Source: Streptosporangiaceae bacterium NEAU-GS5 (lineage in GTDB: Bacteria; Actinomycetota; Actinomycetes; Streptosporangiales; Streptosporangiaceae). From it: 64,000 bases of DNA. Where the stretch lies: assembly GCA_017592665.1 (NCBI GenBank), contig JAGFNW010000028.1:1-64000 (forward strand). Direction: 5' to 3'. The first letter of the stretch is position 1. The number at the start of each line of letters is the position of its first letter. Below the pieces are notes generated by a model. The model saw only the letters and a list, made by a program, of their open reading frames with translations. It had not been told where the DNA came from and made no database searches. The position numbers were made by a program, and so were the translations under genes. This document shows positions 5,302-19,669 of the stretch, in pieces.

Positions 5302-6378
<1,077 letters not shown>

Positions 6379-6704
6379 GGTTCCGCAGGTCGGAAGGGGG
6401 TCTAGACCTGTGTCGTCGTCTGGTGAATGCCAGGTGCCCTTTGGATAGACCCCGCTACCGTCGAGGTTACGTTCCTACCGCTCTGGCCTGGTGAAACGTG
6501 AAATCCGGTGCGAAGTGGGCGTCCAGCGCACTGTCCGAGCCATGCAGACTCGGTTTGCCCCGTTCGAGCAATGACCGCAGCATGGGCGTGGCTTTCCTGG
6601 AACAATTGGCGAGGCCGCTAAGGTGATTACTTCAATGGCCATAACCGGATCGAGAGTAAGACGACACCGCGCCAGCCGGGGGGATCGGCGCGAGCGGAGG
6701 CGTG
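6379..6704. other. 326-bp intergenic region upstream of the T4SS-like operon
   Basis: No convincing gene. It contains a 10-bp perfect palindrome GGTCTAGACC (6399-6408), nested in a CAGGTC/GACCTG inverted repeat, just past the ychF stop. The remainder must carry the promoter of the secretion-like operon, and an AGCGGAGG ribosome-binding site ends at 6700. I could not assign a -35/-10 pair with confidence. Confidence 0.5.
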
Positions 6705-7724
6705 ATGGCTCGCAGGTCAACCGTCCAGCAGGATCCGCGGATCGCTGGCGACCCCGAGTCATACCCTTCGGCGGATCTTGACCTGGTGACGGCCACGCGA
6801 AGGGCCGCGCCTCGCCGCGGGGGCTGGGGAGGCGGAGGCGGCCGCTGGCTCATGTGGGCGGGCCGCGCGCTCGTCTGGGCGTTGATCGTCGTGATCGTGG
6901 TGAACGGCGTCCGCGCGATCTTCGAGCGGGTGACCGCGCAGCCGGCCGGGTCCGGCGCGGTCGTGCAGTCCGCCGACGCGCGATTTCCGGTGACGGAGGC
7001 CGGCGCATTCGCCACCCAATTCGCCGCGGTCTATCTGAATTTCGACGCGACCAATCCGCAGCAGCGCGCCGACAGGTTGCGCCCCTTTATTCCGGAAGGC
7101 GCGTCCGAGCAGTTCGGCTGGAATGGATATGGCCGGATGTCGGCCGGCGCATTCCAGTTCGTGGGAATCGATGTGACGGGAAACAGCGCGATCGTCCGGG
7201 TGAGTTATCAGTCGGGCGGGACTCGGGGTATTCTCGCCGTTCCGGTATATCGGGAAGGCGACCGGTTCGTGGTGTCCGAGCGGCCGGCGCTGCTGGCCGC
7301 CCCGGATCGGGCCGGGCTGCCCCAGGTGTCGGAACCCGACCGCGACGACGCCACGGCGGAGGCCATGCGCCCCACCGTCGAGGGCTTCTTCAAGGCGTAC
7401 GGCGTGGGCAACGCGTCCGATCTACAGCTCTACGTGGCGACGGGGGAGACCATCAGCGGCCTCCCTGGTTCGCTGGAGTTCGCTCAGCTCAAGGACCTCG
7501 TGGTGCCACTGGGAGGCGAGACCAGTCGCGAGGTCACGGCCATCGTCATCTGGGGGCTGTCATCCGACCAGAACACCCAGAACACGACCGCGCCCAGCCC
7601 GGGCGTGGACGATCCGGCCGCTCAGCCGGCCGGTCTTGAGCAGGCCTACCAGCTCAGCATGGAGAAAGTTGGCGGCAAGTGGTTCGTCAAGTCGATCCAG
7701 GGCGCGAGCCGGTCCGTGGGGTAA
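6705..7724 (+). CDS. TcpC/VirB8-like conjugal transfer protein
   Basis: 339-residue bitopic membrane protein, first gene of the secretion-like operon. A cytoplasmic basic, Gly-rich N-terminus (to about residue 47) precedes one TM helix (about 48-66, MWAGRALVWALIVVIVVNGV), then an extracytoplasmic part with two NTF2-like repeats. The first (about 95-195) contains FATQFAAVYLNFDATNPQQRADRLRPF; the second (about 220-335) ends GGKWFVKSIQGA. This is the layout of TcpC, the VirB8-like component of Gram-positive conjugation machines. ATG 6705 lies 4 bp from GGAGG; GTG 6702 is the alternative. It would scaffold the channel at the membrane. Confidence 0.78.
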   Translation: MARRSTVQQDPRIAGDPESYPSADLDLVTATRRAAPRRGGWGGGGGRWLMWAGRALVWALIVVIVVNGVRAIFERVTAQPAGSGAVVQSADARFPVTEAGAFATQFAAVYLNFDATNPQQRADRLRPFIPEGASEQFGWNGYGRMSAGAFQFVGIDVTGNSAIVRVSYQSGGTRGILAVPVYREGDRFVVSERPALLAAPDRAGLPQVSEPDRDDATAEAMRPTVEGFFKAYGVGNASDLQLYVATGETISGLPGSLEFAQLKDLVVPLGGETSREVTAIVIWGLSSDQNTQNTTAPSPGVDDPAAQPAGLEQAYQLSMEKVGGKWFVKSIQGASRSVG

Positions 7725-7773
7725 GCATGATCCATCAAGGAGTCGCTGATCCGTACCCCCGGGAGGGCGAGAG

Positions 7774-8061
7774 TTGATACTGAAAACCATTGCCGACCAT
7801 GTGATCGATCTGGCGTCGCCATCCACGGCCCCGGCGACGGGCATCAACACCGAAGGCCTGGCGGACTTCCTGCGTAAGTTCTTCGCCCCGCTCTTCTTGG
7901 TCATTGTCTCCGTTGTGGCCCTTTTCTTCCTGTTCACGCGGGAGATCACCAGATTTGTGCAGTTCATCATTCTGGCGATCGCGATCGGCGTGATCTTCTA
8001 TGTGCCCAACATCATCGAGGTGACGGCGAAGGCGATCGCGGGGGCACTGGGCATCAAGTAA
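7774..8061 (+). CDS. Small two-TM membrane protein (TcpD/VirB2-like position)
   Basis: 95-residue protein starting at TTG 7774 behind GGGAGG (7761-7766). After a ~35-residue polar start containing TEGLADFLRKFFAP come two TM helices (about 38-54, LFLVIVSVVALFFLF; about 62-80, FIILAIAIGVIFYVPNI) and a short amphipathic tail. Size, topology and location between TcpC-like and TcpE-like genes match TcpD-type or VirB2-pilin-type small components of conjugation machines. Sequence alone does not decide between them. Gap to the next gene is 43 bp. Confidence 0.68.
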   Translation: MILKTIADHVIDLASPSTAPATGINTEGLADFLRKFFAPLFLVIVSVVALFFLFTREITRFVQFIILAIAIGVIFYVPNIIEVTAKAIAGALGIK

Positions 8062-8104
8062 GGCGGTCGGCAGGAGATTCCCGGCAGCAGAGAGAGGAGG
8101 ACCA

Positions 8105-11100
8105 GTGGATCTGCCCACATATACCAATATTTGGCGAATTGAGAAGCGGCTCTACAAGCTCTACGACCTGCGCTTGCCGACGCCGCTGCCGATCGTATGG
8201 ATCGGCGTGTTCGTCGGAGTGGCCGTCCCCTGGTTCGTCCTTCTCCAGCTGGTGGGCGTCCCGTGGGACGCGCCCTGGCACGTCATCTATCTCGTGCCGC
8301 CCGGAGTGGTGACGTGGCTGTCCACCCGGCCGGTCCTGGAAAGCAAGCGCCTCACCGAGTTGCTCCAGTCGCAGGCCCGCTATTTGACCGAGCCGCAGAC
8401 GTGGTGCCGCATGTCTCCGGCCGGCGAGCCCGACGAGATCTCCTTCACCGCCCGCGTCTGGCGCCTCCGCGCCCGCCAGTCCGCCAAGGCCGCCAAAGTC
8501 GTCAAAACCGCCAGAGCCACCACCAGCGCCGCCGCTCTGGGCACCAGCCCAGCCACTGCCACCGCCAGCGCCGCTGCCGGTTTCCCCGGTGCCGCCGCCG
8601 AGGCCGCGCGCGCTCTCCAGACAGGCAAGCCAGGGAGAGCAGGCAAGCCAGGCAGGACAGCAAAGCCAGGCCGGGCCGCCAAGGCGAATAAGACCGCCCA
8701 GCCCGCCAGGGAGGCTCAGCCCAGGCGCGCCCCCTTCGGCCTCAAGTCGCCCCCCGACCTGCCGCCCCTGGGCGCCACTAACGTGCCCCCTCTGGGCACC
8801 GCCAACATGCCTCCGCTGGGCAGCGCCAACGTGCCCCCTCGCGGCCCCGCCAACGCGCCCACCCGCGGCGCGTCCCCTGCTGGCCCGGTTCCTGCCCGCG
8901 GAACGGCTTCCGACGGTTCCGCCTCTGGGCGCGGTGCTCCCGCTGGCCCGGTCCCTGCCCGTGGCACCGCTTCCGAGGGCTCCGCCCCTGGGCGCGGCGC
9001 TCCCGCCGGCCCGGTTCCTAGCCGTGGCGGTGCTCCCGCCGGCCCGGTTCCTAGCCGTGGCGGTGCTCCCGCCGGCCCGGTCCCTGGGCGCGGTGGGGTG
9101 CCCGCTCGTGGTGCCGGGGCCGCCGGATCGCCGCCTGTGCCTCCCCGAGCCCCCGCTCCCGCCAAGGGCCCTGGCCCCGCCCGAGGCCCGGCTCCCGCCA
9201 ACCAGCCCATGCCCCCGGCCGATATGCCCGACCCTTCGGTCGTGCGGCCTGCGGTGGCCAAGGCGGCGGCCGCTGCCGCAGCGGTGCCCGAGCTCGCCGT
9301 GCCCGACCTGTCGGTTCCGCCACGGCCGTCGTCGGACCGCAGCGTCGCCACACCGGACTTCGGCGTCGCGAAGGGCCAACCGGTCTTCCTGATGCCAGAG
9401 CCCGGCGATCGCCGCCCTCGGGCGCCGAAGGAGCCCTCGGCTCCCGAGCCGCTTGTGTCGGGGCCTTCTTCAGGATCCGCGTCCGGGCCCACTGCAGAGT
9501 CCGCGTCGGGATCCGCGTCCGGGTCCGGGTCCGCCCCTGGCACGCCGCCGATCGGGACCGAGGCACTCCGTCGCCTGCGTCGCCTGGCCGCATCGGCGGA
9601 CAGTCCCCCCGCGTCCTCAGCCGCGTCCTCCGCCGGGCCGTCGGCCACGGGCGAAGAGGACAGCGGCCCCAAGCATGCGGGTGCGGAGACGGGTCTTCGG
9701 CCTGCCGGGGGTGAGTCTGGGCCTCGGCACGCGGCCGCTTCTGCGGCGTCGTCGGGTTCGGTGTCGTCGGGTTCGGCTGCGTCGGGCTTGGCATCGGGCT
9801 TGGCTGCGCCGGGTTCGGCCGCGATGTCGGGTTCAGGACCAGCGGCGGCGGGTGCGGGGGTGGGTTCGGGAGCCTCGGCATCGGGCTCGGGGGCCTCGGG
9901 GTCGGATGCGGTGCCGGGTGCTGAGAGCTCTGAGGGCTCTGGTGAGGAATGGGATCGGGACGCTCGCGAGCAGCACAAGAAGGGGCAGCCGCCGCAGTTC
10001 GGGCGGTTGCCGGGGCCGCCGCCCAACCGTGACCTGGCCGCATCCCTGCACGAACGGCTCTCGTCGTCGATCCAGGGGCCACGTCGGCCTGCCGAGGCGC
10101 AGCCTGGGCCCGCTGAGTCGGGGCAGCGCGGGGAGTCGGCCCAGCGTGGCGAGGCGGGGCAGCGTGGCGAGGCGGGGCAGCGTGGCGAGGCGGGGCAGCG
10201 TGGCGAGGCGGGGCAGCGTGGCGAGGCCGGGCAGCGTGGCGAGGCGGCGCAGGCCGGTGAGATGGGCGGCCGGGGAGGTGAGCAGCCGTGGGAGCAGCCG
10301 GTTTCGATCCGGCGGGTGCCGGCGGCGCCGCGCGATCGGGCGGCCGCGGATGGCCCGACAGGGGATCTCGTGCCAGGGGCGCGGGGCTCCGGCGAGCGTG
10401 TGCCCGAGGAGCCCAAGATCCGCCGGGTCGAGTCGGTCGTCGGGCGTGATCACGAGGGTGGCTGGCGACGGCTGGCGCAGGTGGTCGTCGGCGCCGGCAA
10501 CAGCCGTACCGACGGGATGGAGAGCGACGAGGCGCGCGTCAGGACCGAGCTCACGGGGCCGCGGCGGATCGTCGTCCTGGGCTGCACGGGCGGCGCAGGG
10601 CAGACGACGACGGCGCTCATGATCGGGCACACCCTGGCCCGCTATCGCGACGACAGCGTGGTGGCCATCGACGCCACGGCCGGCGACCAGGCCATGACGG
10701 CCCGCGTGCCCGTCACCTCGCCGCAGACCCTGACCGCGCTGCTCGCCGCCGACGGGCCGATCGCGCTGTCCGAATACCTCACGCGGTGCGAGTCGGGCCT
10801 GGACGTGATCGCGGGCGACACCGACCCCGGCGCCGCGCAGCGCCTGTCGGATCGGGCGCTCTTCTCCGACCAGCGGATCGCCCGCGTGCTCGGCGAGCTC
10901 GACCGGCACTACCAACTGACCGTCATCGACCCGGCGGCCACGCTCGCGGCCCGGCTGCTGCCACACGCCGACCAGCTGGTCCTCGTCGCGCCAGCCAGCG
11001 AGGACGCCCCCGACGCGGTGGCCATGACGTACGAGTGGCTCGACGGCCACGGTTGCTCCGACCTGCGGCGTCGTGCGGTTATGGTGATCAACGGAGTGAG

Positions 11101-11308
11101 TCGCCGGAGCATGGACGACGTCGAGCACGCCGAGTCGGTCGCGCGCGGGCGCTGCCGGGCGATCGTCCGTGTGCCGTGGGAGGACGAGCTGGCCAACACC
11201 GGCCCGATCGCCCTCAACCAGCTCCGGTCCGGTGCCCGCAGGGCGTACGTCGCCCTCACCGGTGTGATCGTTATCGGTCAGGCCGCCAGGCAGGAGGTGG
11301 CGAGGTGA
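8105..11308 (+). CDS. TcpE-like membrane domain fused to MinD-like ATPase domain
   Basis: 1067-residue fusion. Residues 1-110 are TcpE/PrgI-like: YTNIWRIEKRLYKLYDLRLPTPLP, two TM helices (about 32-50 and 57-75), then a polar stretch with the family-like LTEPQTWCRM. Residues about 120-810 are Ala/Pro/Gly/Ser low complexity, including APAGPVPSRGG repeats and seven QRGEA units. Residues about 820-1060 are a MinD/ParA-like domain: VVLGCTGGAGQTTTALMIGH, VVAIDATAGD, LTVIDPAATLAARLLPHADQLVLVAPAS. Both lysines of the deviant Walker A motif are missing (Q replaces the catalytic K), so ATP hydrolysis is doubtful. GTG 8105 follows GAGAGGAGG. The stop overlaps the VirB4 start (GTGA). Confidence 0.75.
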   Translation: MDLPTYTNIWRIEKRLYKLYDLRLPTPLPIVWIGVFVGVAVPWFVLLQLVGVPWDAPWHVIYLVPPGVVTWLSTRPVLESKRLTELLQSQARYLTEPQTWCRMSPAGEPDEISFTARVWRLRARQSAKAAKVVKTARATTSAAALGTSPATATASAAAGFPGAAAEAARALQTGKPGRAGKPGRTAKPGRAAKANKTAQPAREAQPRRAPFGLKSPPDLPPLGATNVPPLGTANMPPLGSANVPPRGPANAPTRGASPAGPVPARGTASDGSASGRGAPAGPVPARGTASEGSAPGRGAPAGPVPSRGGAPAGPVPSRGGAPAGPVPGRGGVPARGAGAAGSPPVPPRAPAPAKGPGPARGPAPANQPMPPADMPDPSVVRPAVAKAAAAAAAVPELAVPDLSVPPRPSSDRSVATPDFGVAKGQPVFLMPEPGDRRPRAPKEPSAPEPLVSGPSSGSASGPTAESASGSASGSGSAPGTPPIGTEALRRLRRLAASADSPPASSAASSAGPSATGEEDSGPKHAGAETGLRPAGGESGPRHAAASAASSGSVSSGSAASGLASGLAAPGSAAMSGSGPAAAGAGVGSGASASGSGASGSDAVPGAESSEGSGEEWDRDAREQHKKGQPPQFGRLPGPPPNRDLAASLHERLSSSIQGPRRPAEAQPGPAESGQRGESAQRGEAGQRGEAGQRGEAGQRGEAGQRGEAGQRGEAAQAGEMGGRGGEQPWEQPVSIRRVPAAPRDRAAADGPTGDLVPGARGSGERVPEEPKIRRVESVVGRDHEGGWRRLAQVVVGAGNSRTDGMESDEARVRTELTGPRRIVVLGCTGGAGQTTTALMIGHTLARYRDDSVVAIDATAGDQAMTARVPVTSPQTLTALLAADGPIALSEYLTRCESGLDVIAGDTDPGAAQRLSDRALFSDQRIARVLGELDRHYQLTVIDPAATLAARLLPHADQLVLVAPASEDAPDAVAMTYEWLDGHGCSDLRRRAVMVINGVSRRSMDDVEHAESVARGRCRAIVRVPWEDELANTGPIALNQLRSGARRAYVALTGVIVIGQAARQEVAR
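10121..10246 (+). repeat. 7 x 18-bp tandem repeat inside the fusion gene
   Basis: Seven in-frame copies of an 18-bp unit encoding GQRGEA/AQRGEA, nearly identical at DNA level (core GGGCAGCGTGGCGAGGCG). It lies in the disordered linker of the TcpE-MinD fusion. A candidate for copy-number variation between strains. Confidence 0.85.
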
Positions 11309-13797
11309 GCAAGGCCAAGAGCCGGTTGGCGGTGCGGTACTTCGACGACCGCATTCTTCTCACGGATGCCGCCGCCTGGGCGTACTTCCGGCTGCCCACA
11401 GTCAGCTACGAGTTCATCACCCCGGAGGAGCGCGAGGCGCTGGCGACCAACGTCACCATCGCGCTCGCCACCATCCGCATGCCGGATGCGGAGGTCCACC
11501 TCCGGGTGGCGCACCGCACCTACCCGGCGGCCGAGTGGGCCATGGCGCTCAACACCACCTCCGACGAGGGCCCCGGCTGGCGCGACTACCTCGAGGAGAT
11601 GTATCGGCACGTCTGGGCCAAGGACTTCTGGTCCAAGGAGGTCTACCTCGGCGTACGGCTCGGTCAGCGCGGCCATCAGCTCGGCACGGGTGTTTTTTCC
11701 CAGCTTTTCGGCTTCTACAAGCGTAGTGAGAAGGCGCTCGGCCTCGATGACGACCACGTTCCCGAGCGTGAGATCGAGAAGTGGACCGACCAGGCCGAGC
11801 GGCTCGGGCGCGCGCTCGGCGTGAGCGCCCTCTACGCCAGGCACGCCACGTCCACTGAGATCGCCTGGCTGTTCCAGCATGCGGCCACCGGCGCGCTGGG
11901 CGACCCGCCCCCGTCGGCCTCCCCACGGCGCAAGTGGGGCAAGGGCGAGCTCGAGTCCCTGGTCGAGGGCCAGATCATCAACGGCCGCTCGCTGCTGCGG
12001 ATCGTCCAGCCGACGGGCGACTCCTATGTCGCGCACCTGTCGTTCGCCCGGTTCCCCGATCTGATGCCGTTCCCGGACGGCGAGCCCTGGATGCACTTCG
12101 CCGACCAGTTGCCGTTCCCCGTGGAGATCAGCTCGCGGATGCGTCTGATCCCGCCCGTACGCGCCAGCAAGGACGTGGCGCGGAAGCTGGCGCACGCCCG
12201 CGACATGGACATCCACATCCGCGAGGCGGGCGCGGAGGCCCCGATCGCGCTGGCCGAGCAGATCGACGCGGCCCGGATGCTGGAGCACGGCATCACCAAG
12301 GAGCGGCTGCCGTTCGTCTACGGCTGGCACCGCCTGAGTGTGGCCGCGCCGTCCATGGAGATCTGCGTGCAGCGCGTGGAGGCGGTCGTCGAGCACTACC
12401 GCGACATGGGCATCGACGTGGTCAACTCGACCGGCGACCAGTTCTCGTTGTTCTGCGAGGCGCTGCCGGGCGAGCGGGTCAGGGTCAACGCGTACGCGCA
12501 GCGCCAGCCGCTGCGGACGATCGCGGGCGGGATGGCCACGGCCACCGTCGACCTCGGCGACCGGGTCGACGACTCCAACGCCGGCTGGGTCGGGCCTTAC
12601 ATCGGCGAGACTCTGGGCCGCGCCCGCTCCATCGTGCACTTCGACCCGCTGGTGGCGGCCACCCGCAACCGGCCGACCGCCATCGCGATCACCGGTGAGC
12701 CGGGCGGCGGCAAGACCACGCTCGCGCTGCTGCTGATCTACCAGATGGCTCTGCGCGGGGTGACCGTGGCCGTGATCGACCCGAAGGGTGACGCGGAGTC
12801 CCTGGTCACGCTGCTCCAGCAGCGCGGCAGGAAGGCGCGGACCATCCCGCTGGGCAGCGCCGCGCCCGGATTGCTCGACCCGTTCTCGTTCGGTGACGAC
12901 CTCGCCACCAAGAAGACCATGGCCAGCGAGACGCTGCGGCTGCTCCTGCCGCGCATGTCGGAGGAGCGCGAGTCGGCCATGATCCAGGCGGTGGCGGCGG
13001 TGGCCAACGCGCCCGACCCGTCCCTGGGCAAGGTGGTCGACCACCTGGAAGGCGCCGAGGATCCGGCGTCCAAGAACCTCGGCGCCGTGCTGCGCTCGAT
13101 GTCCGACATGCATCTGGCCCGGCTCTGCTTCGACCCGTACGGCGGCGAGCAGATCGACACGGCCGGCTGGACCACGGTGTTCACGCTCGGCGGGCTGACC
13201 CTGCCGGATGTGACGACGACCCGCGATGACTACTCCTACGAACAGCGGCTGTCGGTCGCGCTGCTCTACCTCGTGTCGCAGTTCGCCCGGAGACTCATGA
13301 ACGGCCTCGACCGCAAGCAACCCAAGGCGATCTTCCTGGACGAGGCCTGGGCGATCACGTCGACTCCGGAAGGAGCCAAGCTGGTGCCTGAGGTGTCGCG
13401 CATGGGTCGCTCCCGGAACACGGCGCTCGTGCTGGTCTCGCAGAACGCCGGCGACCTGCTGAACGAGCAGGTCACCAACTGTCTGTCGTCGGTCTTCGCC
13501 TTCAGGTCCAGCGAGAAGGTGGAGGTCGAGCACGTGATGGAGTTGCTCGGTGTGGATCCGTCCGAAGAGCACAAGGCGGTGCTGCGCGCGCTGGGCAACG
13601 GCGAGTGCGTCTTCCGCGATCTGGACGGCCGGGCAGGGCGCATCGGAGTGGATCTGATCACGGAGGAACTGGTCCGCTGGCTCGACACTAACCCGACGCA
13701 CGACAAACCTGGCGAAAACGACAGGCGTGAACGTGGTGGGGTGCGCGGGATAAACAGTCGGGGGGCGTTGGGGGTCGCGCAGGAGGTGCGGTCTTGA
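11305..13797 (+). CDS. VirB4-like conjugation ATPase
   Basis: 830-residue cytoplasmic motor ATPase of the secretion-like machine. The N-terminal ~430 residues are the VirB4/TraE-type region. The C-terminal RecA-like domain has Walker A GEPGGGKTT (from residue 464), a VIDPKGDAESLV strand, Walker B AIFLDEAWAIT (D near 679) and the VLVSQN motif typical of VirB4/TraC. GTG 11305 overlaps the preceding stop (GTGA) and has AGGAGG at 11292-11297. Its stop overlaps the next start (TTGA), indicating translational coupling. VirB4 energises assembly of T4SS channels; no separate VirD4/TcpA coupling ATPase is seen nearby. Confidence 0.87.
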   Translation: MSKAKSRLAVRYFDDRILLTDAAAWAYFRLPTVSYEFITPEEREALATNVTIALATIRMPDAEVHLRVAHRTYPAAEWAMALNTTSDEGPGWRDYLEEMYRHVWAKDFWSKEVYLGVRLGQRGHQLGTGVFSQLFGFYKRSEKALGLDDDHVPEREIEKWTDQAERLGRALGVSALYARHATSTEIAWLFQHAATGALGDPPPSASPRRKWGKGELESLVEGQIINGRSLLRIVQPTGDSYVAHLSFARFPDLMPFPDGEPWMHFADQLPFPVEISSRMRLIPPVRASKDVARKLAHARDMDIHIREAGAEAPIALAEQIDAARMLEHGITKERLPFVYGWHRLSVAAPSMEICVQRVEAVVEHYRDMGIDVVNSTGDQFSLFCEALPGERVRVNAYAQRQPLRTIAGGMATATVDLGDRVDDSNAGWVGPYIGETLGRARSIVHFDPLVAATRNRPTAIAITGEPGGGKTTLALLLIYQMALRGVTVAVIDPKGDAESLVTLLQQRGRKARTIPLGSAAPGLLDPFSFGDDLATKKTMASETLRLLLPRMSEERESAMIQAVAAVANAPDPSLGKVVDHLEGAEDPASKNLGAVLRSMSDMHLARLCFDPYGGEQIDTAGWTTVFTLGGLTLPDVTTTRDDYSYEQRLSVALLYLVSQFARRLMNGLDRKQPKAIFLDEAWAITSTPEGAKLVPEVSRMGRSRNTALVLVSQNAGDLLNEQVTNCLSSVFAFRSSEKVEVEHVMELLGVDPSEEHKAVLRALGNGECVFRDLDGRAGRIGVDLITEELVRWLDTNPTHDKPGENDRRERGGVRGINSRGALGVAQEVRS

Positions 13798-16712
13798 GGC
13801 GGATGCGGGTTCGGCCTGCTATGGAAATTCGCCCTATTCACGAAAGCCGCTCGTGGTTTCGCGGCCTGCGCCCGGCCCGAGCGGCCGAAGCGCAAGGCAG
13901 AGCGGCGGCCGAAGCGCAGGTGCGGGCGGCCGACAACGCCCCGGGCCGGGCGGCCGGCGATCCCTCGGGCCGAGCGCTCGGCGATGCCTCAGGCCGGAAT
14001 GCCTCGGGCCGGGCGAAGGATGCCTCGGGCCGGGCGATCGGCAATGCCTCGGGCCGGGCGAAGGATGCCTCGGGCCGGGCGAAGGATGCCTCGGGCCGGG
14101 CGAAGCAGGCTCCGGGTCGGCGGCCGCGCAAGCGTCGCCTGATCTCCCGGCGGCTGGCGCTGCTGCTGGTGGGCTTCGTCGCCTTCCTGTCGCTTCCGCT
14201 GGCCGGGTCGGCGCAGGCGGCCGGGCCGTGCGACCTGTCGTCGGCGCTCGCGCCCGAGCTCGTCGGCGGCGGCGTCGACGGGCTGGTCAAGTCGCCGCCG
14301 CCGGATGCGGGCGACACCGGCGCGGTCACCGGGGCCAAGGTCGGCGCCGGCACCCAGCCGCCGGTCGCCGCCGCGCCGAAGCAGGAGCCCACCAACTACG
14401 AGCGCTACGGCATGGCCGGCCAGTTCTGGCACACCTACGGCCTGGGCTGCTCCGACGTGGCCGCCGTGCTCGGCAACGCGTGGGCCAACACGATCTTCTC
14501 CTGGGCCAAGGCCCTCGACCGGATGACGATCACGACCTATCAGGCCGCGGCCACCGAAGGCCCGCTGCTGCCGATCAAGAACGTCGTCGACGACATCGTC
14601 GGCAATCTGGCCAACGCCATGTACTGGCCCTATCTGCGGCCGGTCGTCATCCTCGCGGCGATCTGGCTGGCCTGGTACGGCCTGATCCGTAAACGGGCCA
14701 CGACCACCACCGAGGGCGTCATCTGGATGGTCCTCGCTGTCACCGTGGCCATCTGGTTCTTCAGCCGTCCCGGCGACTTCACGGGCCTCGGAAAGACCGT
14801 TACCGACAAGACGGGCGAGGTCGTCAACTCGGCCTTCTCCGGCCTGCCCGGCGCCGGTGGGGCGTCCTGCCTGCCGCTGAAGGGTCAGACGGGCGCCTCG
14901 CCCACCGTCAGCGGCTACGGCATGCCCGGCACGCCCAGCGTCGACCAGAACGCCGACGCCCTGTGGTCGACCCTGGTCTGCAAGCCGTGGCTGATGGGCG
15001 AGTTCGGCACGGCCGACGCCAACGCCCCCATGGTCCGGCTCATGGGCGCCAAGCTGCTCGACATCCAGGCCGTCGACCAGGACGAGCAGTCCGCCAAGCA
15101 GTTGCCGAGCGGTGACTCCCACCAACAGGCCTTCGAGGAGCAGATCGCCAAGCCACTGCAGAACCAGGCGATCTTCAACCTGTTCCAGGGCAAGGATTGG
15201 ACCAGCCGCCTGGGCATCGCGATCGGCGCGTTCATGGCGGCCATGGTGGCCGGGCTGCTGATCTTCCTGGTGGCGGTGTCGCTGCTGGTGCTCAAGGTCG
15301 GCTTCCTGCTGCTGCTGATCCTCGCGCCGATCTTCCTGCTGATCGGGGTCCATCCGGGCACCGGCCGGATCATCGCCATGCGCTGGGTCGAGATGCTGGT
15401 CGGCACGTTGCTACGGCAGGGCGTGCTGGCGCTCGCCCTCGGCGTCCTCGTGTACGGCTACGCCTTGATCATTTCGACCAACATGCCGTGGGGCATGCAG
15501 ATCATGTTCATGGCCTTGCTGACGATCGCCGTGTTCTTCTACCGGCGGCCGTTCCAGCATCTGTTCGCGTCCATGGACGGCCATACGATGGCCAGCCGTC
15601 TGCTCGGCGAGGCCACGACCGCGCCCACGCTGTCGCGCGCGGCCAACGCGCTGCCGCCGGTCGCGGCCAACCGTCTTGGGCGCTGGGGCCTGCGCAAGGC
15701 CGAGCCCGTGATGAACACGGCGGCCATGGCCGGTGGTGCGGCGGCGGCCGCCGCCACGGTCGCACAAGGCCGTATGCGCGGCGAGGAAGCCGCTCATGCG
15801 GGCGCGGCCGGGGCGCGGGCCGGAGCGCAACCGGCACCGCTCGAGACTGACACGGCCGGGCGCCGGCGCGCCGGCACCACGGCTCCGCGCGCGGGTTCCG
15901 CGCCACCACTCAACTTGAGCGGCGTACGCCCGGGCGGCGGCGCCCCTGGCGGACGGCCCGGCGGACCCGCGGGCAACGGCGCCGGAGCGGGCCGGGCTTC
16001 CGGTCCGGGCAATCCCGCCGGTTCGGGTGGTCCTGGCGGCCGGGTCAACATGCCCGGTGGCCGAGCCCCGGCTGGTCCCGCGCGTGGGGGCGCCGCAGGC
16101 GCCTCCAGCGGCATGGGCGGCGCGTCCGGTGGCGGAGCGGGCAGCGCGTCCGGCGGCTGGTTCAGCGGCCGTTCTGGGGGCGGCTGGGCGTCGCGTCCCG
16201 GCGCCGCGTCCGGCACGGGCGGTGGCCTTCTCGGCACGGCCCGGCCGCGTAACTCGGCCGGCGGCGGCAGCCTGTTCGGCGGTTCGGGCTCCGGCTCGGG
16301 CGGCGGTGGCAGCCTGTTCGGCGGCGGCAGTGGCGGCAGCAGCGGTGGTGGCGGTCGCGGTGGCGGCTCGGCCTCCGGCGGAAGCTCGGGTGGCGGCGGT
16401 GGCTTCTTCGGAGGAGGAGGCGGCGGCTCCAGCAGGCGTTCGTCGGGCGGTGGCATGTTCGGCGGTGGCGGGTCCCGCGGCGGCGGTGGCTCCCGCGGTT
16501 CACGCGACTCCGGTTCTGGCAGGTCAGGTGGCTCAGGCGGCGGCTTCTTCGGCCGCTCGTCGAACGGATCCCGCGGCGGAGGCCGGGCTCCGGCTCCCCG
16601 CGAGGGCGAGAGCCGCCGCGAACCGCCGCCGTTGTGGCTGCCGAGCCGCAGGGACGGCGGTGACGACTCCGCCGCTCCGTTCTGGGCCCGACCCAACGAA
16701 TCGGATCGGTGA
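13794..16712 (+). CDS. VirB6/TrbL-like polytopic membrane protein with low-complexity tails
   Basis: 972-residue protein. Residues 1-115 are Arg/Ala-rich with a repeated DASGRAK heptapeptide. A hydrophobic segment (about 120-142, LALLLVGFVAFLSLPLAGSAQA) resembles a signal anchor, perhaps cleaved after AQA. An extracytoplasmic loop follows, then TM helices near 283-298, 308-325, 470-500, 503-520, 540-560 and 567-583. The order fits VirB6/TrbL, the polytopic channel subunit. Residues about 620-972 are Gly/Ser/Pro-rich with FGGG and SGG repeats. TTG 13794 overlaps the VirB4 stop and is 7 bp from AGGAGG. Role inferred from topology and neighbours. Confidence 0.7.
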   Translation: MRRMRVRPAMEIRPIHESRSWFRGLRPARAAEAQGRAAAEAQVRAADNAPGRAAGDPSGRALGDASGRNASGRAKDASGRAIGNASGRAKDASGRAKDASGRAKQAPGRRPRKRRLISRRLALLLVGFVAFLSLPLAGSAQAAGPCDLSSALAPELVGGGVDGLVKSPPPDAGDTGAVTGAKVGAGTQPPVAAAPKQEPTNYERYGMAGQFWHTYGLGCSDVAAVLGNAWANTIFSWAKALDRMTITTYQAAATEGPLLPIKNVVDDIVGNLANAMYWPYLRPVVILAAIWLAWYGLIRKRATTTTEGVIWMVLAVTVAIWFFSRPGDFTGLGKTVTDKTGEVVNSAFSGLPGAGGASCLPLKGQTGASPTVSGYGMPGTPSVDQNADALWSTLVCKPWLMGEFGTADANAPMVRLMGAKLLDIQAVDQDEQSAKQLPSGDSHQQAFEEQIAKPLQNQAIFNLFQGKDWTSRLGIAIGAFMAAMVAGLLIFLVAVSLLVLKVGFLLLLILAPIFLLIGVHPGTGRIIAMRWVEMLVGTLLRQGVLALALGVLVYGYALIISTNMPWGMQIMFMALLTIAVFFYRRPFQHLFASMDGHTMASRLLGEATTAPTLSRAANALPPVAANRLGRWGLRKAEPVMNTAAMAGGAAAAAATVAQGRMRGEEAAHAGAAGARAGAQPAPLETDTAGRRRAGTTAPRAGSAPPLNLSGVRPGGGAPGGRPGGPAGNGAGAGRASGPGNPAGSGGPGGRVNMPGGRAPAGPARGGAAGASSGMGGASGGGAGSASGGWFSGRSGGGWASRPGAASGTGGGLLGTARPRNSAGGGSLFGGSGSGSGGGGSLFGGGSGGSSGGGGRGGGSASGGSSGGGGGFFGGGGGGSSRRSSGGGMFGGGGSRGGGGSRGSRDSGSGRSGGSGGGFFGRSSNGSRGGGRAPAPREGESRREPPPLWLPSRRDGGDDSAAPFWARPNESDR
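13985..14107 (+). repeat. 21-bp tandem repeats encoding DASGRAK
   Basis: About six imperfect copies of a 21-bp unit (core GCCTCGGGCCGGGCGAAGGAT) at the 5' end of the VirB6-like gene, in frame and encoding a basic Ser/Gly/Arg/Lys repeat on the predicted cytoplasmic side. The last two copies are identical. Confidence 0.8.
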
Positions 16713-16718
16713 TCCAGG

Positions 16719-17393
16719 GTGGCCGGGGACAGTCGTAGAGGGCTCGCCTTCGCCGGTGTCGTCGCGGTGCTGGCCGCCGTAGGCGTCTACTTGACGATGA
16801 TGCCCGGCGGCGACAGCCGTACGGAGACCTCGCCGAGCAAGCCGGCCGCGGCGGGGCAGCCGTCGACGGCGGCCGACCAGACGCGAGATCCCGCCCAGCC
16901 GTCACAGGTGCCCTCCCAGATCGCGCCGCCCCAGGCGTCGCCGGACGCGAGGGGCTTCGACGTCTACTCCTATCTGCCGGTGTCGCGCGAGGACCTGGCC
17001 GCCGCGGCCGACGTGGCCCGCCGGTTCACCGCCTCCTACGCCACGTTCCGCTACGACGAGGATCCGGTCTCCTACGCGACCCGGTTGAAGAACTTCGCCA
17101 CAGCCGAGTTCGGCGACTCCCTCACCAGGACCGTCACGGCTCCCGCGCTCGTGCAGCGCAACCAGGTCGACCAGGTGGTGTCGGCCGGCTCGGCCAAGGT
17201 GAAGACGATCCGCGACATGAGCTACGACAGCGTCGTCTTCGTGGTCACCGCGACCGCCCACGTGTCGGCCAAGAGCGGCGACACGGAGCAGGCCGACGAC
17301 TACGCCGTGACCGTGAGCAGGGACGGCGCGGTCTGGCGGGTCTACGACATGGAGCCGGCCGACGCGGGTCAGGACGGTGACACGACGCCATGA
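16719..17393 (+). CDS. VirB8-like/NTF2-like membrane-anchored protein
   Basis: 224 residues, GTG start at 16719, 6 bp after the VirB6-like gene. A single N-terminal TM anchor (about 7-26, LAFAGVVAVLAAVGVYLTMM) is followed by a Pro/Ser-rich spacer. The NTF2-like domain (about 85-215) contains DVARRFTASYATFRYDEDP and ends AVTVSRDGAVWRVYDMEP. The fold pattern is that of VirB8/TcpC periplasmic domains, making this a second, single-repeat VirB8-like subunit in the operon. Its stop overlaps the next start by 4 bp (ATGA). Confidence 0.65.
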   Translation: MAGDSRRGLAFAGVVAVLAAVGVYLTMMPGGDSRTETSPSKPAAAGQPSTAADQTRDPAQPSQVPSQIAPPQASPDARGFDVYSYLPVSREDLAAAADVARRFTASYATFRYDEDPVSYATRLKNFATAEFGDSLTRTVTAPALVQRNQVDQVVSAGSAKVKTIRDMSYDSVVFVVTATAHVSAKSGDTEQADDYAVTVSRDGAVWRVYDMEPADAGQDGDTTP

Positions 17394-18565
17394 CCGCCCC
17401 TCCCCGGGCTCCCAACCGTCTGCGCATCCTCCCGCCCCGGCCGCAGACCAGGAGGACCGGCGGCCGGAATCCTTGGATCCGCGCCGGGACCTTGATCCCG
17501 TGGATCGTGACAGGGCTGGGCGGCTTGGCGATTCTCGCCATGCTGCTCCAGATGATCTTCATGACCCCGACCGTGGTCCCGTCGCTCGGCGGCCGGTCGG
17601 AGGCCGAGTGCGCGGGCGACGTGGCGAGCACGGTGGGCCTGTCGAAGACCGCCCAGTCCGACATTCCGCCGGAATACCTCAAGGAGTACAAGAAGTCCGC
17701 GCAGAAGATCGGCATTCAGTGGGAGGTCCTGGCCGGCATCGGCAAGCGGGAGACCGACCACGGCCGGTCGAAGCTTCCGGGTGTCAGCAGCGGCACCAAC
17801 TACGCGGGCGCGGCCGGGCCGATGCAGTTCCTGATCAGCACCTGGGGCGGCAAGGCCAAGATGAAGATCCCGTCGACGTTCAACGGATACGCCTCCGACG
17901 GCGACGACGACGGCATCGGCGACGTCTACAACCCGGCCGACGCGATCCTCGGCGCGGCGCGCATGCTCAAGCGCAACGGCGCCCCCGACGACCTGCGCAA
18001 GGCGATCTTCGCCTACAACCACGCCAACTGGTATGTGGACCAGGTCCTCGAGTTCGCCAAGAAGTACACCGAAAACGGGCAGATCGAGGTGCTGCCGGAC
18101 GCCGACCCGGCCTGTGACATCCCGTTCGTGGCCTCGGCGCCCAACGTGGTCGTGGCCAAGATCCTCGACTACGCGCTGGAGCAGCGCGGCAAGCCGTATC
18201 GATGGGGAGGGACCGGGCCGGACGCCTTCGACTGCTCCGGCATCGTCTACATGGCCTACCGGAACGCCGGGCTGTCGATCCCGCGCACCACGTTCGGCCA
18301 ATACCCGTTCGGGGTGACCGTGCAGGCGGGTCAGGAGCAGGCCGGCGACCTGGTGTTCTTCAATGCGGGCCCGGGCACGTCGCTGCAGCATCCCGGGCAC
18401 GTCGGGCTGATCGTCTCGCCCGGCAAGATGGTCGAGGCCCGCTGCACCCTCTGCGGCCCGATCAAGGTCTCCACCTATCGCGACCGCGAGAACATCGTGG
18501 GATACACACGCCCCCTCGCCAACGAGGATGTGCTGGAGCAGATCAAACGCCTCGGCATAACCTAG
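17390..18565 (+). CDS. Membrane-anchored lytic transglycosylase / NlpC-P60 peptidase
   Basis: 391-residue bifunctional wall hydrolase, the VirB1-like member of the operon. A TM anchor (about 42-62) is followed by an SLT-type domain with predicted catalytic E121 (GIGKRETDHGRS) and GPMQFLISTWG and YNPADAILGAARML motifs. The C-terminal NlpC/P60 domain has catalytic C282 (DAFDCSGIVYMAYR) and H337 (GHVGLIVSPG). The pair would cleave glycan strands and peptide stems to open peptidoglycan for the channel. Starts within the preceding stop (ATGA). Confidence 0.88.
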   Translation: MTAPPRAPNRLRILPPRPQTRRTGGRNPWIRAGTLIPWIVTGLGGLAILAMLLQMIFMTPTVVPSLGGRSEAECAGDVASTVGLSKTAQSDIPPEYLKEYKKSAQKIGIQWEVLAGIGKRETDHGRSKLPGVSSGTNYAGAAGPMQFLISTWGGKAKMKIPSTFNGYASDGDDDGIGDVYNPADAILGAARMLKRNGAPDDLRKAIFAYNHANWYVDQVLEFAKKYTENGQIEVLPDADPACDIPFVASAPNVVVAKILDYALEQRGKPYRWGGTGPDAFDCSGIVYMAYRNAGLSIPRTTFGQYPFGVTVQAGQEQAGDLVFFNAGPGTSLQHPGHVGLIVSPGKMVEARCTLCGPIKVSTYRDRENIVGYTRPLANEDVLEQIKRLGIT

Positions 18566-18571
18566 TCCGGC

Positions 18572-18970
<399 letters not shown>

Positions 18971-18991: not shown

Positions 18992-19669
18992 GTGCCGGTG
19001 AACCGGTGGGGGCGGCGCGCACAGATCGTGTGCGCGGTGGGTGCGGCCGTGGTCGTCTTCGGAGGGACGGGGGTGATCATGGCCGGAAGCGTCAATCAGG
19101 CATGGCCGGCGTCCGCCGCGCGGCCTCCCGTGCTGACGCTGCGGCTGGCGGGCGCGGTCGATCCGGCGTGGAACGGCTGGATCCAGGCGGGTGACGTGCT
19201 GCGCTTCCGGCTGGCGCTGTCGGGGTCCATGCGCCGGGCGAGGGTCGCGCTCGCCGCCGACCCTGCGTCCGCGACGCTGTCGGCCGCCTGTCCGCGCAAG
19301 CCGTCGGTCTCCCCGCCGGGCCAGGTCTGCGACCTGGGGAGAGTGCGCGACGGACGGGAGATGGACGTGCGCGTCACGGTCCCGCCCGGCGCGCGTCAGG
19401 TGGCGCTCACGGCGGTCGCGCACATAAAACGCCCGGCCGACACCCGCACCCGCTGGCTCAGCCGTACCACCGCGGTGATCGTCGGCACGCGCATGACCAG
19501 CCTCGAGACGCCGAACGGCGCGTACGTCACGGCGCCGCGCCCCGGTGACCGGCCGCTCGGACCGCCGCTCGCGCCGAGGCCGGGGCCATCGGCCACGCCG
19601 CGCGGGCTAACGGAGGACGGCGTGCTGCCGGCCATGCCCCCGCCGCTGCGGCCGGTCCAAGATTCGTAG
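18992..19669 (+). CDS. Exported protein of unknown function
   Basis: 225 residues, not recognised. An N-terminal signal anchor (about 9-32, IVCAVGAAVVVFGGTGVIMAG) leads to a region resembling a beta-sandwich (about 50-165), with two Cys (SAACPRKPS and GQVCDLG) placed to form a disulfide, then a proline-rich C-terminus ending PAMPPPLRPVQDS. GTG 18992 or GTG 18998 may be the start; a weak GACGGGGG precedes. The disordered tail suggests a wall- or surface-associated protein. Confidence 0.6.
   Translation: MPVNRWGRRAQIVCAVGAAVVVFGGTGVIMAGSVNQAWPASAARPPVLTLRLAGAVDPAWNGWIQAGDVLRFRLALSGSMRRARVALAADPASATLSAACPRKPSVSPPGQVCDLGRVRDGREMDVRVTVPPGARQVALTAVAHIKRPADTRTRWLSRTTAVIVGTRMTSLETPNGAYVTAPRPGDRPLGPPLAPRPGPSATPRGLTEDGVLPAMPPPLRPVQDS

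Follow-up and report, generated by a model that had tools for sequence, protein, structure and literature searches.

The 64,000-nt window analysed here (the whole stretch; Streptosporangiaceae bacterium NEAU-GS5, contig JAGFNW010000028.1, positions 1 to 64,000) carries at 6705-18565 seven adjacent genes (A-G, encoding P0001-P0007) for a type IV secretion system (T4SS)-like apparatus. This chromosomal apparatus is probably a domesticated and maintained conjugation machine, captured once, whose cargo is most likely protein. A domesticated conjugation machine had been proposed in a first-pass annotation made from the sequence alone, and the proposal is supported by the near-universal presence of the apparatus in the order, by flanking genes shared in 34 of 40 loci, by the absence from the source genome of the DNA-handling families searched and by a plasmid counterpart that has VirD4 and MobF.

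The seven reading frames were all found at the coordinates given earlier (Table 1) and were assigned to families using Pfam, NCBIfam or an AlphaFold2 model. The earlier VirB4, VirB6-like, VirB1-like and TcpC-like calls were borne out by Pfam matches in P0004, P0005, P0007 and P0001, respectively. The small protein with two transmembrane (TM) segments is TcpD-like by a weak match, and the TcpE-like fusion does contain TcpE, its partner now being identified as a domain of the MinD/ParA fold that lacks the P-loop lysine. The mating-channel gene set of a Gram-positive TcpC/TcpE-type T4SS (TcpC, TcpE, VirB4, VirB6 and a wall hydrolase) is thus complete. Against the TcpF family profile the gene D product scored 240 bits, far under the 1100-bit cut-off. 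The description of most junctions as 4-bp overlaps was too strong, as only three of six are of this kind (C-D, D-E and F-G); by the gene coordinates, A-B, B-C and E-F are short gaps.

Table 1. Coordinates of the apparatus genes and of the features around them
Feature	Coordinates	Strand	Evidence
ychF, upstream flank, marks the site, outside the system	5302..6378	+	upstream in 27/40 loci
Upstream element, probable promoter or regulator site of the operon	6577..6609	+	core GGAACAATTG at 6599-6608; element also given as CTGGAACAATTG
5' leader before gene A, possible stem CGCGCC..GGCGCG	6663..6692	+	alignment, close genera
Gene A, TcpC-like (VirB8-type), 339 aa	6705..7724	+	PF12642 1.1e-14
Gene B, two-TM protein, TcpD-like, 95 aa	7774..8061	+	NF040685 weak, E 0.017
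Gene C, TcpE, linker and predicted MinD/ParA-fold domain	8105..11308	+	PF12648 5.3e-22; model
Gene D, VirB4/TcpF ATPase, 830 aa	11305..13797	+	PF12846 (AAA_10) 2.3e-66
Gene E, VirB6/TrbL, polytopic, 972 aa, TTG start uncertain	13794..16712	+	PF04610 1.4e-8; NF046089 9e-21
Gene F, second VirB8-like protein (predicted), 224 aa	16719..17393	+	AlphaFold2 model, fold comparison
Gene G, VirB1-like wall hydrolase, SLT and NlpC/P60, 391 aa	17390..18565	+	PF00877 3.3e-20; SLT weak
nudix hydrolase, downstream flank, marks the site	18572..18970	+	PF00293 8.6e-16; downstream in 28/40 loci

P0006 gave no Pfam match up to an E-value of 1 and was assigned from an AlphaFold2 model built from 49 aligned sequences. 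The model (predicted local distance difference test score, pLDDT, near 98 in the core) has one N-terminal helix, probably transmembrane, followed by a VirB8/NTF2-like domain. It was matched to DotI (Z 13.2, root-mean-square deviation (rmsd) 2.9 over 126 residues), to PrgL of pCF10 (Z 12.2, rmsd 2.8 over 117 residues) and to VirB8 (Z 12.2). As modelled, P0006 shows the N-terminal helix and the fold that define the VirB8 family, and the earlier claim of a second VirB8-like protein was upheld.

In the gene C product, TcpE (residues 5-103) is joined by a long low-complexity linker of several hundred residues to a domain at about residues 820-1055. The model of this C-terminal domain (pLDDT 81) is predicted to have the MinD/ParA fold, with Soj (Z 24.5, rmsd 2.7 over 230 residues) and MinD (Z 23.6) as matches. 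Gln takes the place of the P-loop lysine in 119 of 119 loci, so that the deviant Walker A motif with its catalytic Lys is missing; the motif counts given here and below, over 120, 119 and 104 loci, come from named and unnamed locus sets that partly overlap. The domain is strongly conserved (mean column identity of 72% in 19 sequences). A single open frame encodes both TcpE and MinD in 37 of 40 loci; of the others, two are cut by contig ends, and in L121 TcpE is in another frame.

A VirB4 match was found in 247 of the 250 genomes of the source's GTDB family and in 67 of the 68 genera sampled, and the apparatus is therefore there by more than chance. All 219 family genomes with completeness of 90% or more and contamination of 5% or less have it; the three genomes without a match are 67-74% complete. 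In a class-wide sample (296 genomes), VirB4 was present at 77% identity or more in all 28 family members listed, and 65 of the 268 genomes outside the family gave weaker matches (33% identity or less over stretches of at least 330 residues). In the order, 118 of 121 genomes contain TcpC, and it is present in the sole sampled genome of the sister family f47. Family f48, searched with TcpC and not with VirB4, had it in none of three genomes. Nonomuraea, Streptosporangium, Microbispora, Planotetraspora, Herbidospora and others are among the named relatives (L014-L093, the best 80 of 255).

Synteny from ychF to the nudix gene, suggested earlier as a check, was examined in 40 loci: at least one of ychF and nudix was present in 34, and 21 had both; in 6 neither was in view. 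The order A-B-C-D-E-F-G on a single strand was kept wherever the genes were in view. In two loci of genus g47 (L118 and L124) unrelated genes lie between C and D and between D and E, with all seven genes retained; by inspection, the extra genes in the g47 operon are oxygenase-, nuclease- and kinase-like and seem to have nothing to do with the system. Some missing flanks are accounted for by short upstream views of less than 600 bases (L094, L118 and L122). In L097, L101, L103, L109, L110 and L133, 3.3-4.9 kb upstream were in view without ychF, and nudix was kept. Hidden Markov models detected gene A in 38 of the 40 loci, B in 38, C in 40, D in 40, E in 38, F in 36 and G in 36; the gene F match in L127 is gene A and was not counted. 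Genes were missed where a locus or its contig stops; for two such cases E, F and G were recovered in continuation loci (L150 and L151). T4SS genes were found by blastp (1e-6) in none of eight outgroup ychF regions, one of which is only 6.3 kb. The regions from families f37 and f13 keep ychF, nudix and sdhB together, the one from f48 keeps ychF and sdhB, and in the other five sdhB was not seen in the stretch examined. A single insertion between ychF and nudix, later rearranged in some genera, would be the simplest history.

Distances between VirB4 proteins followed those between YchF proteins in the 25 loci where ychF was complete (r 0.861; none of 2000 permutations was as high, the best being 0.439), and VirB4 is the more conserved of the two (mean distance 0.185 vs 0.213). 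The VirB4 Walker A string was identical in 120 of 120 loci and the Walker B DE was present in 41 of 41 rows. In gene G, the SLT Glu and NlpC Cys motifs were present in 104 of 104 loci.

A partner coupling protein or relaxase elsewhere in the genome had been named as a point to be checked. In the whole source genome (99.4% complete, 127 contigs), searched with profiles that matched in control genomes, there was no match to TraG-D_C (VirD4-type coupling protein) or to the relaxase families PF03432 and TrwC, other relaxase families not having been searched. The one AAA_10 protein in this genome is the gene D VirB4. The locus therefore corresponds, for the families searched, to a MOBless T4SS, with VirB4 and channel genes on the chromosome and no PF03432 or TrwC relaxase nearby.

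In a plasmid search, relatives of VirB4 at 71-74% identity were found on three Nocardiopsis plasmid records, and the records of the nearest plasmids are listed under Streptosporangiales. A fourth match (87%) was to a Nonomuraea record of 11.85 Mb that is entered as a plasmid but, judging by its size, is presumably the chromosome. Like the window, the plasmids NZ_CP099838.1 and NZ_CP080600.1 encode TcpC (32/31% identity), the two-TM protein (67%), VirB4 (71-74%), VirB6 (30/31%), a second VirB8-like protein (30/29%), an SLT enzyme and a MinD-like protein. They differ from the chromosome in that TcpE (169/158 aa, 54/55% identity) is separate and not fused to MinD, the separate MinD/ParA protein (30/28% identity to the P0003 domain) has an intact P-loop (KGGVGKT), and the hydrolase is SLT-only, whereas the chromosomal one has an additional NlpC/P60 peptidase domain. 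Both plasmids also carry a MobF relaxase and a VirD4-family protein by annotation (Pfam-checked on NZ_CP099838.1), both genes being tens of kb away from VirB4. The PLSDB typing of the two plasmids as non-mobilizable disagrees with this annotation. Phage records gave only four weak VirB4 matches. Relatives of the MinD domain were found on 72 plasmid records, and among those listed none exceeded 37% identity save the Nonomuraea record.

The differences between the chromosomal and plasmid forms are observed, and from them we infer the direction of change. The unfused TcpE and active MinD would be the ancestral state, because regaining both is less likely than one loss, although replacement may instead have taken place on the plasmid. 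The chromosomal apparatus is regarded as domesticated because, in contrast to the complete plasmid form, it has a fused TcpE-MinD, Gln in place of the P-loop Lys and an NlpC/P60 domain, and because its VirB4 and hydrolase catalytic residues are invariant.

In the history and mechanism proposed, a TcpC/TcpE/VirB4-type apparatus would have been captured, most simply once, between ychF and nudix in the ancestor of most Streptosporangiales, and would then have become a core cellular machine. The membrane channel would consist of both VirB8-like proteins together with VirB6, TcpE and the TcpD-like protein, VirB4 would use ATP to build the channel and drive export, and the SLT-NlpC/P60 enzyme would open the wall. 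The tethered pseudo-MinD domain may dock the machine at a site in the cell or at a cytosolic partner. Channel parts, motor and wall enzyme are all kept, and something is therefore assembled or exported at the cost of ATP. As neither VirD4 nor the relaxases searched were found in the source genome and almost every genus has the apparatus, its likeliest use, and a reasonably probable one, is to export protein for the cell. No coupling protein would be needed for the cargo to enter, and Bordetella Ptl and Brucella VirB offer a precedent.

Several observations weigh against this account. Of the six loci with neither flank in view (L118, L120, L122, L124, L125 and L127), four belong to genus g47, in which other genes also interrupt the operon. 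The plasmid VirB4s are nearest to g47 in an unrooted tree (78-80% identity for one, 74-76% for the other), so that the apparatus may have passed from chromosome to plasmid; a tree with distant outgroups gave no resolution of the root. Genes A, C, E and F evolve fast (median dN/dS of 0.448, 0.456, 0.446 and 0.709) compared with VirB4 (0.154) and YchF (0.192); these are Nei-Gojobori values, inflated by codon bias and used for ranking alone, and gene G has no value. The best sequence match in the PDB to the P0006 profile is OmamC (E 3.4e-4), a mycobacterial Mce-associated protein, and the T4SS role of P0006 is therefore argued from fold and context. Finally, the relaxase search covers PF03432 and TrwC, the coupling-protein search covers the source genome, and one of the eight FtsK-type proteins of that genome could serve as a coupling protein.

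Next after protein export comes a structural or developmental role without release of cargo, in which the pseudo-MinD would position a wall-spanning complex at septa or at the tips of hyphae. Presence across the sampled genera favours a core cell process over a niche trait, and the predicted MinD/ParA fold and the conservation of that domain are also consistent with positioning. The fully kept Walker motifs of VirB4, however, indicate energy use, and we consider this role unlikely.

Traffic of DNA for the cell, the last of the three uses, would consist of uptake, as in Helicobacter ComB, or of the transfer of chromosomal or mobile-element DNA between hyphae. The coupling protein would then be an FtsK-type translocase of the host or of an actinomycete integrative and conjugative element (AICE). 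The nearest mobile relatives of the apparatus are indeed on plasmids with VirD4 and MobF. FtsK-type profiles gave 10 matches in eight proteins of the source genome, which by inspection are FtsK, two EccC-like proteins and five others. Four of the five (C58:5004, C67, C35 and C94) have an integrase-like gene nearby, again by inspection, and none was in view near the fifth (C58:25403). The idea of a dedicated coupling protein among these was set aside, and no FtsK-type (TcpA-like) protein was found on the contig carrying the locus. Against DNA traffic stand the absence of PF03432 and TrwC matches and, in the excerpts available of PMC3218068, the description of AICE translocases as not requiring a genuine T4SS; we rate this use as rather improbable.

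A conjugation apparatus with its relaxase and coupling protein elsewhere in the chromosome would have a parallel in the distance of VirD4 and MobF from VirB4 on the plasmids, but with no TraG-D_C, PF03432 or TrwC match in the source genome it is very improbable. An ordinary integrative conjugative element or a decaying remnant, to which the homology with conjugation genes and the patchy look of other actinomycete VirB4 loci in the class sample might point, can in essence be dismissed, as neither the sporadic presence among close relatives nor the variable sites of such elements were seen and the distribution, common flanks, VirB4-YchF congruence and intact genes and catalytic residues speak against it.

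The tcp apparatus of Clostridium perfringens pCW3 and the Tn916-type elements have the same set of TcpC, TcpE, VirB4 (TcpF), VirB6 and wall hydrolase as the window. The window differs from them in the pseudo-MinD fusion, in being a chromosomal core locus and in belonging to a genome without VirD4 or the relaxases searched. Bordetella Ptl and Brucella VirB, which transport protein, share with it the lack of a coupling protein; both are diderm systems of another type. They are named as T4SSs without a coupling protein in excerpts of PMC12102498, which also describe the T4SSs of Patescibacteria as monoderm, chromosomal, mostly relaxase-less and widespread in the clade. Unlike the window, the latter are MPF-FATA systems that have VirB2-like pilins and numerous VirD4 homologues, most of which are encoded away from virB4 (PMC12102498). 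MOBless T4SSs are a known kind (chromosomal VirB4 and other T4SS genes with no relaxase nearby; Guglielmini 2011, PMC3158045), and in the available passages of that paper no actinobacterial order is described as having one as a core system. A single VirB4-like gene is kept in three Frankia strains, its significance being judged unclear in the part of PMC2266912 available.

No treatment of the Streptosporangiales system was found in the accessible passages of the open-licence PMC literature. What is new is a near-universal Gram-positive machine without VirD4 (in the source genome) and with a TcpE-pseudo-MinD fusion; relaxase-less and clade-wide T4SSs were already known. Whether Gram-positive T4SSs became dedicated effector translocators is called a long-standing question in a 2025 review (PMC12857230, in part), and a VirB4 machine kept in almost all genomes of a family, with a mobile plasmid counterpart, bears on it. 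The TcpE-pseudo-MinD fusion points to a way in which a conjugation machine may be rewired once it no longer serves a plasmid. Streptosporangiales are a large group of filamentous soil bacteria, and their machine, apparently without DNA-handling parts, probably exports something else for the cell.

The best VirB4 relatives outside the source family were in family f37, probably Micromonosporaceae, where they were present in 75 of 81 genomes and 41 of 44 genera at 73-98% identity. The f37 system (L152, L153 and L200-L203) comprises VirB4, a VirB6-like protein, a VirB8-like protein, an M23 peptidase, a TcpE-like protein and a two-TM protein. It lies beside folP-side genes in G430, G339 and G577, and no fol gene was in view in L200-L202. 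An FtsK/SpoIIIE protein (842/939 aa) is encoded close by in L152 and L153. None of the three genomes of the f37 genus g191 (G550, G581 and G601) had an f37 VirB4 match, which makes this genus a candidate for a clean loss. The lone chromosomal virB4 of Micromonospora lupini, with neighbours of unknown function (PMC4182475, in the passages available), probably belongs to this second system.

In the VirB4 tree, in which long branches were flagged, the f1/f47 and f37 sequences formed separate clades, each with 100/100 support. The f37 clade joined two other VirB4s (98/94), and f1/f47 joined L198 with weaker support (86/62). The separate clades suggest two acquisitions, and the f1/f47 and f37 T4SSs are thus likely, if not proven, to have been acquired separately. 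More tentatively, and somewhat short of an even chance, core T4SSs without a coupling protein may be native actinomycete export machines that were domesticated at least twice, the Streptosporangiales one being steered by a dead, TcpE-tethered MinD. If so, they would be the first T4SSs found throughout a clade of ordinary Gram-positive bacteria that serve the export of the cell's own proteins or cell-to-cell traffic and not mobile DNA.

In L168 and L169 (f19, g103) and in L156 (G030), T4SS-like genes lie beside Tad-pilus-like genes (CpaB-, MinD- and TadA-like by inspection), and these loci are possibly a third chromosomal system; each of the 12 g103 genomes listed gave a weak VirB4 match (1e-12 to 1e-15). 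Another T4SS, with a VirB4 of 40-42% identity, was noted on contig 57 of G551 (L204-L206). By inspection it is flanked by his-like genes on one side and a miaA-like gene on the other, and a VirD4 protein (TraG-D_C 1.4e-18) is encoded about 24 kb beyond. L154 and L207-L208 are a weak control for integrative conjugative elements, because no clear relaxase was found by Pfam among the proteins scanned.

Upstream of gene A, the region 6577-6692 is highly conserved among close genera and may form a hairpin before the start codon. Of 38 upstream regions, 20 contain the core GGAACAATTG with at least nine of its 10 bases kept (against a mean of 0.23 and a maximum of 2 in shuffles), and this recurrence suggests dedicated control. 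A sigma-70 scan found nothing, and a riboswitch was rejected for the conserved leader, the best Rfam match (E 0.9) being under its cut-off. Among the neighbours, the frames at 18992 and 19792 were considered as substrate genes and set aside; neither has a Pfam match. Of the 40 loci, 6 gave a match to 18992 and 18 a match to 19693 (the start of a longer version of the 19792 frame), in the closer genera.

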